From Planctomycetota bacterium (GTDB taxonomy: Bacteria > Planctomycetota > Phycisphaerae > Phycisphaerales > Phycisphaeraceae), in the NCBI GenBank assembly GCA_016350165.1, contig CP066225.1, forward strand, positions 4,030,001-4,094,000: a DNA stretch of 64,000 nucleotides. The letters are read 5' to 3'. The notes below the pieces were generated by a model, which saw only the letters and a list, made by a program, of their open reading frames with translations, had not been told where the DNA came from and ran no database searches. Shown piece after piece: positions 19,150 through 25,117 of the stretch (its first letter is position 1; every line of letters begins with the position of its first letter). A program made the position numbers and the translations under genes.

Positions 19150-20091
19150 ATGAAAATGACAAATTTGATTGATGAGAGTATTAATAGCCTACCTAATGAG
19201 GTCAGTATGCGTGCGTATATTGTGTGCTTTTGTGACTTGCTCGGACAAAACAAACGTATAAATGATCTTGAAGCCAAGTATGATGAAATATACTCGGAAA
19301 GTTTTCAAAGAGCTGCACTTCAAATTGTAGATAATGTTCGATTGTTCCGAGAAATGTTCAGATTATATTTTCGTGGTGTATCATTGCAATCCAATGAGAG
19401 TGAAACTTATAAGAAAAAACTTGAAAGAGAGAATGAGTTTACAGCAGATGATTACGTGAATGAAATCAGAAAAATGGGTATTAAATATCAAACGTTCTCA
19501 GATACTTTAATTGCTTACGCACCTTGTGTAATTGATGAAGATGATGGTAGAGTAAATCTCAATGCTATTCATTTAATAATGGGTGTGGTAAGTAGAGCAT
19601 TTTTAGAGTCGTTTTCACTTGAAATACCGTTTCGAGGTGGGATTGATATTGGTTTAGGCTATGAAATAAATGGAAAAGAAATTTCAGGTCCAGCTTTGAG
19701 AGCGGCGTATTATTGTGAAAATAATTTGGCAAAGTGGCCACGGGTTGTTGTAGGGGAATCATTGGTCAAATTATTACGTGAATATGATTTTAAAACTAAA
19801 GAGCGGATCGATCTGGCGAAGCATTGCCGTGAGTTACTAATTTCGACCTCAGATAATATATCAACATTAGATTTTTGTGGAAATGCAGTTAAAGCTAATT
19901 TTGATTTAGATGGGTGGGGGAAAAAGGTACAAAGAGCATATCAATATGTTTTAGCGTCTGAGGAAGAGTTTCGACTAAAGGAAAAATCAACTTTATGTGA
20001 AAGATACTCATTTTTAAGGCAATTTATTGAAGATCAAGCACCGGGTATCATTGATTCGTATCGTTACAAAAAAGCAAGACAAGTTCATTAG
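19150..20091 (+). CDS. Orphan protein with a nucleotide-cyclase-like pattern
   Basis: 313 residues, no family recognised with certainty. The order of motifs resembles a class III nucleotidyl cyclase core: a first strand with an acidic residue (YIVCFCDLLGQ, near 23-33), a second acidic hairpin (FSDTLIAYAP, near 117-126), then PFRGGIDIGLGYEINGKEISGPALRAAYYCE (near 160-190) and PRVVVGESLV. In cyclases the two Asp residues bind metal and RxGIxxG follows. Here the usual GD is SD and the substrate-selecting residues are not obvious, so the domain may be inactive or of new specificity. The gene is visibly AT-richer than its neighbours, lies between the hairpin repeats and a zinc-ribbon gene, and has no partner gene. 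A transferred gene is possible. Confidence 0.4.
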   Translation: MKMTNLIDESINSLPNEVSMRAYIVCFCDLLGQNKRINDLEAKYDEIYSESFQRAALQIVDNVRLFREMFRLYFRGVSLQSNESETYKKKLERENEFTADDYVNEIRKMGIKYQTFSDTLIAYAPCVIDEDDGRVNLNAIHLIMGVVSRAFLESFSLEIPFRGGIDIGLGYEINGKEISGPALRAAYYCENNLAKWPRVVVGESLVKLLREYDFKTKERIDLAKHCRELLISTSDNISTLDFCGNAVKANFDLDGWGKKVQRAYQYVLASEEEFRLKEKSTLCERYSFLRQFIEDQAPGIIDSYRYKKARQVH

Positions 20092-20187: not shown

Positions 20188-20577
20188 ATGATGCTTCGTG
20201 GGCGAAGGCGATATTGGAGGCGGGGATTGGTGGTAGGGTGGGTGTGTTGTTTGTTATTGATCATAATCTTTCCGCCTTGGTATCAAACGAATGCGGGGAG
20301 TTTTGCTGGGTTTGGTCATCGGTATTTGTGGGGTTCGCATTTGGTGGCAGGTCGAAGGCATAGCACGCGGATTGTTTTTTTCTGGGAGTTATATATAGCG
20401 GAGGTTTTGGGGGTTTCGGGTTTTGTGTATTGGACGCGTAAGCGTATTGATCTTATGAGAAGTTATGGCGTGTGTGATGAATGTGGTTATGATTTAAAGG
20501 GGACAAGGGATGCGGGGCGAGAGGTGTGCCCTGAGTGTGGGTGGCAGATTGATTGTTTTGATGAAGGGAAATGTTGA
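20188..20577 (+). CDS. Small membrane protein with a C-terminal zinc ribbon
   Basis: 129 residues. Membrane segments lie near residues 10-30 and 65-85. The C-terminus has CDECGYDLKGTRDAGREVCPECGWQID, a two-CxxC zinc ribbon of the kind repeated in many Phycisphaerae proteins. AAGGA precedes the ATG closely; the next codon is also ATG. Its stop overlaps the start region of the following ACP-like gene, so they are translationally coupled. The function is unknown; the ribbon probably mediates protein or nucleic-acid contacts on the cytoplasmic face. Confidence 0.7.
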   Translation: MMLRGRRRYWRRGLVVGWVCCLLLIIIFPPWYQTNAGSFAGFGHRYLWGSHLVAGRRHSTRIVFFWELYIAEVLGVSGFVYWTRKRIDLMRSYGVCDECGYDLKGTRDAGREVCPECGWQIDCFDEGKC

Positions 20578-20939
20578 TGGGCTTGGAAGATGTTGAACTG
20601 ATTATGGAGGTGGAAAATTACTTTGGGATTAAGATTAGTGATGCGGAAGCGGGGCAGGTGAAGACGGTTGGAGATTTGTGTGATTTGATCAAAAAGCATG
20701 TTGGTAAGGTTATTGAGGAAAAAGTTATTGTTGCGGTAGGATATCGATGTAAAGGTTGTGATTATTCATTGAAGAGTTTGCCACAACGTGGGAAGTGTCC
20801 AGAATGTGGGTTAGCTTATTGTTGCGTTGAAGAGATTGAAACGGTTGTTGTAAAGATTATCCGTGACCTATTTTTTGTATCCAAGAAAGAAGTGATTACG
20901 CGTGAGACTGATTTTCGACGGGACTTGAAGTTTGGTTAG
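20571..20939 (+). CDS. Circularly permuted acyl-carrier-like protein with inserted zinc ribbon (copy 1)
   Basis: 122 residues. Residues 4-44 (GLEDVELIMEVENYFGIKIS..., ...KTVGDLCDLIKKHV) line up with the second half of acyl carrier proteins (SLDTVELVMALEEEF...). Residues 58-80 are a zinc ribbon, CKGCDY...KCPECG. Residues 89-122 (VVVKIIRDLFFVSKKEV, ...TDFRRDLKFG) line up with the first half of ACP, ending exactly where the DSL motif would stand. So the ACP order is swapped around the ribbon. The phosphopantetheine Ser is replaced by Gly, hence it is probably not a carrier but a structural or binding relative. Coupled to the gene before it. A paralogue lies at 24728. The alternative start at 20577 forms a TGATG overlap. 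Confidence 0.65.
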   Translation: MLMGLEDVELIMEVENYFGIKISDAEAGQVKTVGDLCDLIKKHVGKVIEEKVIVAVGYRCKGCDYSLKSLPQRGKCPECGLAYCCVEEIETVVVKIIRDLFFVSKKEVITRETDFRRDLKFG

Positions 20940-21399
20940 TGATAAAGTGGAAATGATTGCGGTCTAATAGTTGGTTAGTTGTTTGAAAAAAGTGGAAGTT
21001 GTTTTGGGTGTTTAATAGTGGTTGCGTCTGTCTTGTAGTTATTTTTGATTAAAGATAAAGATTATTTTGGTCTTTTGTTTCCGCTTTTAATTGCGGCTGT
21101 TTAAGTAAATTCTTTATGTGCAAGATTGTGCCTAAACCACTGTTTTTTAGGGGGTTATGTGGCTGTGCTGTGTTAATGGTTTGGTTAATGGAACAGGTGT
21201 TAAGTTGGGGGTAATGTATAGGTGGATGTGATTGCGGAGGTTTTTAGTGTTAATTTGCTGCGAATGATGATGGAATCTCACTTTTTATTTTTGAATATTT
21301 CTAAAAGAATGGCATAATTCCCACACGTAAAGGAGAAGGATAGGTCAATGCAACGTTGACTTACCTGTGTTAAAGATCAGGATACTAGGAGATAGAAAG
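20940..21399. other. Intergenic leader of the PEP-CTERM gene
   Basis: 460 bases, no convincing open frame. A CCTAAA/TTTAGG inverted repeat near 21134-21155 and a good promoter at 21291 are visible; a three-codon ATG-CAA-CGT-TGA frame at 21348 lies in the leader. Confidence 0.5.
21291..21318 (+). promoter_or_regulatory. Sigma-70-type promoter of the PEP-CTERM gene
   Basis: TTGAAT (21291-21296), 16-base spacer, TGG-CATAAT with an extended -10 (hexamer 21313-21318). Transcription would begin near 21325, giving a 75-base leader. Confidence 0.55.
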
Positions 21400-22170
21400 A
21401 TGCGAGAATTAATCGCGAAATGTTGTGCTGTGGCTGTATTGTGTAGTTTGGGTATGGCTCAGGTGGATGCGGGTATGTTATGGGTGTCTGATGGTAATGG
21501 AAAATTAGCAACGATTGATACGCAGACATGGCAGGTTGATGTGAAGGGTACCATGCCAAAGGTTATGACAGATATTGCTATGGATGATGATGGCAAGCTC
21601 TGGGGTACCGATCGTGAGAACATGTATCGAATTTGGCAGAACACTGCAAAAATTACAGACATCACCAGTGGTACAAAAGATTTTGGTAATGCACTTGGTG
21701 TTGTTGATGGCGAAATGATTAGCCTTAGACCTGATTACATGATGGGCATCAACACAAGCACAGGTAACATCAGTCGTACACTTAGAACAGACAGACTTAC
21801 CAGTGGTGATCTTGAGCAGTTTAATGGTAAGACTTATATGGTTTCTTACTACACGAAGAACAATGATTATACGAACGTGCTTGCTGAGCTTGATGTTAAT
21901 ACAGGTCGTGTGACTGACATTGGTAGTTTTGGTCGTAAGAATGTTTACGGCTTGGCGGAAGCTGATGGTAAGTTGTATGCAGCGAGTGAGAATGTGATTT
22001 ATGAAGTTAATACTAATAACGGTCATTTAACGAAGCTTCGTAAGATTAGTCAGATGGAACAGATTTGGGGCATGACGAGTGTACCAGAGACGCCGGTGAT
22101 TCCGGAGCCAGCGAGTGCGGCATTGATTGGTTTGGGTATTGTTGCATTGCTTGGTCGTCGTCGCGGCTAA
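21400..22170 (+). CDS. PEP-CTERM secreted protein, propeller-like (copy 1)
   Basis: 256 residues from the ATG preceded by AGGAG. A Sec signal peptide (cleavage after AQVDA, near residue 24) is followed by repeated short blade-like units (GKLATIDTQTW, ITDIAMDDDGKLWG, ...VYGLAEADGKLYAASENVIYEVNT), which suggest a beta-propeller. The C-terminus is the sorting tail IPEPASAALIGLGIVALLGRRRG: a PEP motif, a hydrophobic stretch and arginines, the signal for exosortase processing. The protein should end up at the cell surface or in the matrix. It is a paralogue of the protein at 23819, with the same opening LWVxDxNxKLATxDT. A hairpin terminator follows. Confidence 0.85.
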   Translation: MRELIAKCCAVAVLCSLGMAQVDAGMLWVSDGNGKLATIDTQTWQVDVKGTMPKVMTDIAMDDDGKLWGTDRENMYRIWQNTAKITDITSGTKDFGNALGVVDGEMISLRPDYMMGINTSTGNISRTLRTDRLTSGDLEQFNGKTYMVSYYTKNNDYTNVLAELDVNTGRVTDIGSFGRKNVYGLAEADGKLYAASENVIYEVNTNNGHLTKLRKISQMEQIWGMTSVPETPVIPEPASAALIGLGIVALLGRRRG

Positions 22171-23818: not shown

Positions 23819-24583
23819 ATGAAAATTGGAAAGTTTTTAGCATGTAGCGCGGTTCTGACGTTTACAGGTTGTTTGGTTGGGCAGGTAGATGCAGCGTTGT
23901 TGTGGGTGCATGATACGAATGAGAAGTTGGCGACAGTAGATACGGTGAGTGGTGATATTGTGATTAAGGGGACGATGAGTGCACAGATAACAGATATTGC
24001 TTTTGATACGGATGGGAAGCTCTATGCGATTGATAGTCAGAAGTTTTATGAAGTGAATCCTGAAACAGCTGATCTTACTTTGATTGGATCACATGGGATA
24101 ACGGGTGCTGTTGCGTTAAGTGCGGATGATCAAGGGCGGATGTATGCGGCGAGTGATGAACAGTGTGGTTTGTTTGAGATTGATGAGACGACGGGGAGTG
24201 GTGTGAAGGTGTTGGATGTGCCGTTGTGTGCGGATGGTGATTTGTCGTGGTTAGATGATCGTATGTATTGGAGTACGACGGATAATTACCTTGCACGTAC
24301 GCATTTGGATTTGGGGTATCGGTATATGGGTTATATGCAGCCAAGTAATGTTTGGGGTTTGGCGACAGGGCAGGACGATGAGTTGTATGGTTTTGCAGGT
24401 AAATGTGTTTATAGGTTTGATACTGAGGATGGGGATTACGAGTTTGTGATGAACCTTAATTCTTCGGAGTTGTGTGGTATTGGTGGTGCGACGGCTGCAC
24501 CGATACCTGAGCCTGCGACGGCGATGTTTGGTGTTGCTGGGTTGGTGGGTGTGATGGTGATGCGAAATCGTAAACGTGCATAA
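23819..24583 (+). CDS. PEP-CTERM secreted protein, propeller-like (copy 2)
   Basis: 254 residues. The signal peptide ends after VGQVDA; the region then runs LWVHDTNEKLATVDT, ITDIAFDTDGKLYAID, VWGLATGQDDELYGF, which are blade-like repeats as in the paralogue at 21400. The sorting tail is IPEPATAMFGVAGLVGVMVMRNRKRA. GGAGGGG lies 7-8 bases before the ATG, a strong ribosome site. It contains five or six Cys in the mature part, which copy 1 lacks, so disulphides are possible. The gene is clearly G-rich on the coding strand. An intrinsic terminator follows, then the second ACP-like gene. Confidence 0.85.
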   Translation: MKIGKFLACSAVLTFTGCLVGQVDAALLWVHDTNEKLATVDTVSGDIVIKGTMSAQITDIAFDTDGKLYAIDSQKFYEVNPETADLTLIGSHGITGAVALSADDQGRMYAASDEQCGLFEIDETTGSGVKVLDVPLCADGDLSWLDDRMYWSTTDNYLARTHLDLGYRYMGYMQPSNVWGLATGQDDELYGFAGKCVYRFDTEDGDYEFVMNLNSSELCGIGGATAAPIPEPATAMFGVAGLVGVMVMRNRKRA

Positions 24584-24647: not shown

Positions 24648-24727
24648 ACGGATTGGGATGAGTTGATGCAGCTAATCAATGATTAGTTATTGTTTTGTAA
24701 TTGGGTTGATTGGGAGAGGGTGTTACA

Positions 24728-25117
24728 ATGTGTGCTCAATTAAGTGAGGGCAAAATGATGAGTCGTGATTTTTTAGTTGTTGTGATGGATATTGAAGCGT
24801 TTTTTGATGTTACTTTTCCTGGGCATGTTTTTGGGGATGTTGTGACAGTTGGGGATATGTGTACGATTGCGAAGCGGTATGTGAATGTCAACGAAGTTGG
24901 TTGTATTCAAGAAGAAAAACGAGCTTGTTTTGGGTGTGATTATAAGCTGCGAGGATTGTCAATGACGGGGGACTGTCCTGAGTGTGGTTTGGTTTTTGAT
25001 TATACGCAAGCGGGAGTTGAGGAGATGACGATACAAGTGATTGCCCGCACGATTGGAATGGTGCGTGAGAAGATTAAACGTTCAAGTCGATTGAGTGGTC
25101 ATTTGGGGATCAGGTAG
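24728..25117 (+). CDS. Circularly permuted acyl-carrier-like protein with inserted zinc ribbon (copy 2)
   Basis: 129 residues from ATG 24728 (GGGAGAGGG 7 bases upstream); ATGs at 24755 and 24758 are also possible. Same build as the protein at 20571. Residues about 11-54 (MSRDFLVVVMDIEAFFDVTF, ...VVTVGDMCTIAKRYV) match the ACP second half; CFGCDY...DCPECG is the ribbon; and the C-terminus (MTIQVIARTIGMVREKI, ...SSRLSGHLGIR) matches the ACP first half. Here a Ser stands where the phosphopantetheine Ser of DSL aligns (MSRD against DSLD), but the Asp before it is lost. Its last 8 bases overlap the 3' end of mfd, tail to tail. No acyltransferase or synthase is near. Confidence 0.6.
   Translation: MCAQLSEGKMMSRDFLVVVMDIEAFFDVTFPGHVFGDVVTVGDMCTIAKRYVNVNEVGCIQEEKRACFGCDYKLRGLSMTGDCPECGLVFDYTQAGVEEMTIQVIARTIGMVREKIKRSSRLSGHLGIR

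Follow-up and report, generated by a model that had tools for sequence, protein, structure and literature searches.

Few small proteins have been studied as well as acyl carrier protein (ACP), and no natural circular permutant appears to have been described: a search for permuted or pseudo-ACPs, with partial literature coverage (mainly open access, judged by title and the opening of the abstract), found none. The locus studied here raises the question of whether a small gene in the window, that is, the whole stretch of 64,000 nucleotides that was analysed, encodes such a permutant, built around a zinc ribbon, and whether a Ser at its carrier position means that it still carries acyl chains. 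On balance, we lean towards the reading that the gene, called copy 2 below, encodes a circularly permuted, non-carrier ACP, or "pseudo-ACP". Copy 2 probably no longer carries acyl chains, because most of its relatives have Gly at the attachment point of the phosphopantetheine arm. The features of the locus are as follows.

20577..20939, + strand: copy 1, a paralogue reading MGLEDVEL...DLKFG, with the same permuted plan and with Gly (64.0 bits when wrapped; AF2 pLDDT 71.7)
21367-22170 and 23819-24583: two related genes beside the permuted ACP genes
24710..25117, + strand: ORF of copy 2, with possible starts at 24710 (TTG), 24728, 24755 and 24758 and its end at 25117
24728..24757, + strand: possible 10-residue N-terminal extension of copy 2 (MCAQLSEGKM), with ATG at 24728 and GGGAGAGGG 7 nt upstream
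24758..25117, + strand: most likely CDS of copy 2, the permuted ACP-zinc-ribbon protein (119 aa, MSRDFL...HLGIR; start putative)
24758..24886, + strand: ACP second half (helices II-III-IV), copy 2 residues 1-43 (HMM positions 38-72, 15.5 bits; AF2 helices)
24761..24763, + strand: AGT codon of Ser2, which aligns with the phosphopantetheine Ser (the column holds Gly in 36/38 dereplicated family proteins)
24926..24985, + strand: C4 zinc ribbon CFGC-x12-CPEC, copy 2 residues 57-76 (from sequence; four Cys kept in 3/3 ribbon-type proteins)
25007..25114, + strand: ACP first half (helix I and loop 1), copy 2 residues 84-119 (HMM positions 4-31, 10.4 bits; AF2 helix 84-99)

The start at 24758 was chosen because the first residue of the relatives falls in that column and because GAGGG lies 7 nt upstream of the ATG. 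The ATG at 24728 is an alternative with a likewise good ribosome-binding site, and the choice of start for copy 2 is putative. The original prediction placed the Ser next to the N-terminus, which is true for the start at 24758, where it is residue 2, but not for the start at 24728, where it is residue 12. In the frames of copy 1 and of L041, the related gene of a sister species, a stop lies four codons before the Met-Gly start, and therefore neither can have the 10-residue extension. The ATG of copy 1 and the stop codon of the ribbon gene before it overlap in TGATG. A search for a sigma-70-like promoter near the copy 2 gene found none, with 1.1 expected by chance.

Sequence homology and predicted fold

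An HMM for planctomycete ACP was built from 36 dereplicated canonical ACPs, all with Asp-Ser-Leu-Asp by selection and with the Ser at position 38. Taken alone, the N-terminal 43 and the C-terminal 36 residues of copy 2 give the two partial matches listed above. In the wrap test, the C-half is joined before the N-half, with 500 shuffled C-halves and the C-termini of 198 other ORFs of the window as controls. Joined in this way, the halves of copy 2 give a single match over HMM positions 4-71 with 33.0 bits, a score reached by 0/500 shuffles (top 21.8) and 0/198 other C-termini (top 22.3). The order that had been claimed for copy 2, ACP second half, ribbon, ACP first half, is thus borne out against 698 controls. 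The proposed alignment of MSRD with DSLD is also correct, with Ser2 on position 38, the Ser column. For copy 1, none of the 500 shuffles or 198 other C-termini reaches the wrapped score.

Across the family, 21 of 22 proteins, copy 2 included, score above all of their own controls in the wrap test; the exception, L162, is equalled by 5/500 shuffles and 1/198 other C-termini. The N-halves begin to match the HMM at position 39 (their own residue 3), except those of copy 2 (at 38) and L162 (at 40), and those of L201 and L199 are too weak to place. The C-halves end at or before position 37.

It had been argued that two independent copies make a chance resemblance unlikely. The resemblance is indeed beyond chance, but the copies are not independent evidence, because they are diverged duplicates (34% identity over copy 1 residues 5-103). 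Independent support for the permutation comes from the phylum-wide membrane-type family described below. In profile-profile comparisons with canonical ACP, 16 membrane-type N-halves match with E 2e-16 (template 39-77) and the 16 C-halves with E 1.4e-13 (template 2-37). The family profile A5 (16 rows) matches 131 distinct chains at E<=1 among the sequences of solved structures, with a best E of 1.4e-21 (2ehs). Among the best 60 of these 131, 57 are named as ACPs and 54 have two matched stretches; the other three (NDUAB1-alpha, NDUAB1-beta and SDAP1) we take to be mitochondrial ACP subunits. The match table gives only the better stretch per chain, which is query 2-42 with ACP residues ~35-75 (2ehs) or query 194-228 with ACP residues ~4-38 (6n3p).

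With NF002148, the NCBIfam model for ACP, unjoined copy 2 is matched over its N-half only (14.6 bits, E 0.022, model 39-72), below the curated cut-off of 71 bits, and no Pfam match to PF00550 (PP-binding) was found for copy 2 at E<=10. Unjoined copy 1 matches NF002148 best at residues 5-43 (model 39-77, E 1.5e-11). Re-joining of the halves raises the NF002148 score from 14.6 to 21.6 bits for copy 2 (model 7-72), from 44 to 52 bits for copy 1 (model 3-77), from 32.6 to 40.9 bits for L041 (model 5-72) and from 61.3 to 74.9 bits for P0003 (model 3-76), the last of which exceeds the curated 71. Three of four checked relatives pass the Pfam phosphopantetheine cut-off without the attachment Ser, two by the N-half alone and one with two stretches, which is a warning to annotators.

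Copy 2 does not have the linear ACP helix order of I, loop, II, III and IV, and a collinear match is obtained only after re-joining; its two ACP halves are permuted and meet at the Ser column, as in the other members that pass the wrap test. In comparison with type II ACP (AcpP; TIGR00517, NF002148, PF00550), both halves of copy 2 are homologous and the predicted helices follow I-IV after re-joining, whereas the order is II-III-IV, ribbon, I, the DSL motif is lost, the chain ends at the prosthetic position and the scores are below the curated cut-offs.

The AF2 model of copy 2 (16 alignment rows; pLDDT 85.7, pTM 0.76) has helices at residues 3-16, 22-25, 31-42 and 84-99 and strands at 70-72 and 79-81. 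As modelled, the helices follow ACP I-IV in the expected permuted order, and closure of both halves into one ACP domain is a prediction with which this helix pattern agrees. The model of copy 1 (3 rows; pLDDT 71.7, pTM 0.57) has helices at 3-16, 22-25, 31-49 and 87-99. Its top three Foldseek matches are ACPs (40-43 columns, rmsd 0.9-1.3 Å, probability 0.94-0.98, E 0.4-0.7), and matches of 40-43 columns would fit the modelled N-half. By VIA-align, most ACPs are placed over residues 1-120 of the copy 1 model with Z ~4-5.5, the best with Z 5.0-5.5, rmsd 2.6-3.1 Å and 68-72 aligned residues. These Z scores are no better than those of two unrelated phosphatase-like chains, presumably HAD (Z 5.7-5.8), and are therefore not counted as proof. 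With the copy 2 model, no ACP is among the best 50 of 117 Foldseek matches or among the VIA-align matches listed, for which the candidates came from Foldseek only. This absence counts weakly against the ACP fold, since Foldseek compares chains in sequence order and VIA-align was confined to the candidates from Foldseek, but it lends that fold no support.

In short, the copy 2 chain would start at helix II, run through helices III and IV into a C4 zinc ribbon as connector, and end with helix I. The two halves would close into one ACP-like four-helix domain, with the free chain ends meeting where the prosthetic Ser would be.

Relatives and the carrier column

The ribbon type of the permuted protein is encoded by three genes in 2 of 347 genomes of the class, two in G000 and one in the sister species G001, and so only in the window's genus (profile A3, full-length matches, at most 12 candidates scored per genome). 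Because the genome searches scored the best 7 to 15 candidates per genome, the family counts are lower bounds. A membrane-type form, permuted in the same way, has a scattered distribution in the phylum Planctomycetota. In 392 genomes of the phylum, a search seeded with L042, L050 and L054 gave matches in 28 at E<=1e-7, and a profile search matched 58 at E<=1e-10. Among these 58, 39 match nothing beyond model position 81, which is the pattern of ordinary ACPs (only some of the 39 were individually read), and 19 cover the C-half or most of the model; within the 19, the matches in G127 and G344 are fragments and the one in G350 (L162) is uncertain. Of 170 genomes in the order to which G391 belongs, 31 have a match at E<=1e-14, which in G127, G802 and G854 is only partial. 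Five pairs of close membrane-type genes have dN/dS of 0.16-0.25, and those genes are therefore under purifying selection. With copy 1 as the query, a search for related loci led to two, each of them an ordinary ACP. A DNA pattern for Met-x-Leu/Phe-Asp-x-Val-Glu-Leu, run over the 392 genomes, gave matches that were mostly chance-like or from other families and was not used.

Membrane-type proteins (L102, L104, L113, L163 and others) share with copy 2 the permutation, the two halves and the junction at the Ser column. They differ in having Gly after the start codon and, in place of the ribbon, an insert of 145-177 residues, or of 337-348 residues in three long members, with hydrophobic stretches that appear by eye to be transmembrane. 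The ribbon type would thus be closed through the zinc ribbon and the membrane type tethered via these stretches. Given that the membrane type keeps the ACP halves and the junction without a ribbon, the permuted ACP is the constant part. In the longer proteins L042, L050 and L110 (416-427 aa), the middle unit seems by eye to be repeated, as two similarly patterned stretches that include hydrophobic segments. The idea, also formed by eye, that the membrane-type insert is a second degenerate ACP was not supported, as a profile comparison of the insert of the shorter type gave 1.8% probability over 12 columns. The membrane-type gene fragments L161 (G127) and L170 (G344) have no N-half and are apparent pseudogenes.

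In 42 unique proteins, the Ser column holds Gly in 40, Ser in one (copy 2) and Leu in one (L162, the start of which could not be placed); after dereplication at 90%, Gly is found in 36 of 38, with the same two exceptions. L225, which has an in-frame stop, is counted in the 42 and excluded from the 38. The Gly count leaves out the fragments L161/L229 (G127) and L170 (G344), the partial matches L230 (G802), G854 and L204/L130 (G364, a second match with the C-half out of frame), the second matches G859:C57 and G731:C254, for which no locus was read, and duplicates. The count is to be read with the facts that start placement sought an M/L-G start, a possible bias, and that the family profile itself expects Gly in this column; the retained starts all lie at base 1501, which is also the first base of the profile match. 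For nine members in which the M/L-G pattern was not matched, reading from the beginning of the profile match gives Met-Gly or, in L215, GTG and then Gly. The C-terminus lies exactly one residue before the Ser column in 32/38 proteins, as it does in copy 2, and one residue earlier in 6/38 (L042, L050, L110, L111, L212 and L227).

Copy 2 departs from the family in having Ser2 rather than Gly after the start codon. The original prediction was right that a Ser occupies the carrier column of copy 2 and that the carrier Asp is absent: the Asp column holds the C-terminal Arg, and the Leu column of the Asp-Ser-Leu site also holds Arg. Its further claim, that a carrier Ser has been kept, did not hold up, given that Gly is found in L041, in copy 1 and in all 34 dereplicated membrane-type relatives with placed starts. 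The check that it proposed, conservation of the Ser in orthologues, also went against it: L041, the sole candidate orthologue, whose orthology rests on position, has Gly. Because of the Gly in these relatives, the permuted family is likely to have had Gly ancestrally, with Ser arising later. A change from Gly to Ser takes one base (GGY to AGY), and the Ser of copy 2 is most likely drift in a duplicate.

Helix II of the membrane type is acidic at E. coli positions 38, 41, 47 and 48 in 97, 88, 100 and 79% of proteins, respectively (n=34); at positions 49 and 51 acidic residues are largely gone, being found in only 32 and 24% (n=34). Where E. coli ACP has Asp35, Leu37, Glu41 and Glu48, copy 2 has Arg (the C-terminus), Arg, Val and Ala, and Asp38 and Glu47 remain. 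Because Gly is common in the family and these four residues are lost in copy 2, a kept carrier site appears unlikely. The pseudo-ACP would act without phosphopantetheinylation, as an adaptor that binds proteins through the ACP surface (helix II) and not as an acyl shuttle. The mitochondrial mACP of Plasmodium, as described in the part of the source consulted, works without the phosphopantetheine arm as a binding subunit of Isd11-Nfs1 (PMC8547962). By analogy, it would be a precedent for armless ACP function, like the pseudo-ACP in that an ACP is kept without its prosthetic group; it is a divergent ACP, set beside copy 2 by description, and the abstract mentions neither permutation nor a ribbon (PMC8547962).

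The partner of copy 2 may have changed, or copy 2 may be decaying, since it has lost part of the acidic helix-II surface that the membrane type largely keeps. The case for copy 2 still binding the partners of ACP is weak, because Glu41 and Glu48 are lost and the membrane type has itself mostly lost the acidic residues at 49 and 51. The wider puzzle is why a family scattered over a phylum, opened at the active-site Ser and nearly fixed for Gly there, should keep the ACP shape and much of the binding face and drop the carrier site. The permuted family is a natural system that separates ACP as scaffold from ACP as carrier.

Local duplication and the state of copy 2

In the sister species G001, a single ribbon-type gene (L041, or P0004, which reads MGLEDLEI) lies between c13 and c14, which we take, by eye, to be a transporter and mfd. 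Copy 2 also lies between c13 and c14, together with a PEP-CTERM-type gene, and copy 1 is found beyond c13, at a place where G001 lacks a ribbon-type gene. By position, L041 is a candidate orthologue of copy 2; by sequence, it is nearer to copy 1 (38% over 125 columns, 72.8 bits) than to copy 2 (29% over 127 columns, 55.5 bits), which would fit faster change in copy 2. The products of the two related genes at 21367-22170 and 23819-24583 are presumably PEP-CTERM-type secreted proteins. Because the window holds two ribbon-type genes and two of these related genes, and 18 kb of G001 one of each, the gene pair of the window probably arose by local duplication.

Copy 2 could then be a decaying duplicate of a once useful pseudo-ACP, with relaxed constraint to explain the change from Gly to Ser, the acidic losses and the low ACP score; this is a serious alternative, although on present evidence an unlikely one. 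It is favoured by the NCBIfam ACP score, the lowest of the three ribbon-type proteins (14.6 bits versus 32.6 and 44), by the losses in helix II, by the greater nearness of L041 to copy 1 and by the single copy in G001. However, the frame of copy 2 is intact, its four ribbon Cys are kept, both halves are recognisable, the AF2 model is confident, and the gene occupies the position of the single copy in the sister species.

A search for a conserved operon partner of the permuted ACP in 21 neighbourhoods of relatives and the window found, among simple ORF calls, no adjacent gene that is shared beyond near relatives. Neighbours are shared by members of one genus and by the syntenic window and G001. 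Three clusters reach further, c4 (L187, L188 and L203), c19 (the window and L204) and c22 (L191 and L199), and none of them adjoins the permuted gene in all of its loci. The ORFs of the neighbourhoods were called by a simple longest-frame rule, which produced false ORFs where GC content is high, and 20 of the neighbours were compared with Pfam. Five proteins had no match at E<=0.01 in the anti-phage defence library (PADLOC). A 313-aa ORF upstream of copy 1 (19150-20091) has no match in Pfam, NCBIfam or PADLOC.

The ribbon and the chain ends

The ribbon of copy 2, with its two CxxC pairs, presumably binds zinc. In the AF2 model, the two short strands lie around the second Cys pair only. The insert is like a short planctomycete zinc ribbon, CxxC-(D/G)Y-x-L-x-(G)L...CPECG, with similar stretches at many places in the genome; elsewhere the ribbon lies in other, often larger reading frames, whereas in copy 2 it joins the halves of an ACP. 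The gene immediately upstream of copy 1 (20188-20577) encodes a small protein that is hydrophobic over a stretch near its N-terminus and has a ribbon of the same kind; a gene like this one may be the source of the ribbon in the permuted ACP.

It is doubtful that the ribbon is the working part, binding nucleic acid or protein, with the permuted ACP halves as a frame for dimerisation or stability. In favour of this reading, the genome has 57 further places that copy 2 matches at E<=10, chiefly through the ribbon, and the ribbon accounts for 11 of the 22 columns that are invariant among the three ribbon-type proteins, but the membrane-type relatives conserve the ACP halves and the junction without any ribbon.

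A still less probable reading, and one that we regard as improbable, is that the exactness of the junction is itself functional in a carrier-like, armless protein, in which the amine of Gly at the carrier site is a working group (an acceptor for acyl or other groups) or the termini are sensed or joined. Removal of Met would leave the free amine of Gly at the carrier position, beside the C-terminal carboxylate, and the Ser of copy 2 would be a variant of this N-terminal site. The near-constancy of both termini fits such a role. N-terminal myristoylation was set aside, as we know of no N-myristoyltransferase in bacteria.

That the protein is an acyl shuttle with phosphopantetheine on Ser2 (on Ser12, given the longer form) is highly improbable: the Ser does sit in the carrier column, but Gly is found there in the other ribbon-type proteins and in all 34 placed membrane-type relatives, the four signature columns have changed as given above, and no Pfam PP-binding match was found at the threshold used.

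Two loci with carriers of ordinary order were also observed. In L045 (G038), two ordinary ACP genes lie in tandem at about 1297-2005, and tandem ACP genes are an arrangement from which a permutation can arise. Adjoining the permuted gene L199:6463-7227, L199:7232-7723 (- strand) encodes a carrier-like protein of ordinary order (PF00550, E 2.1e-8) with GGESID in place of DSL, and it is a possible carrier partner in that genome.
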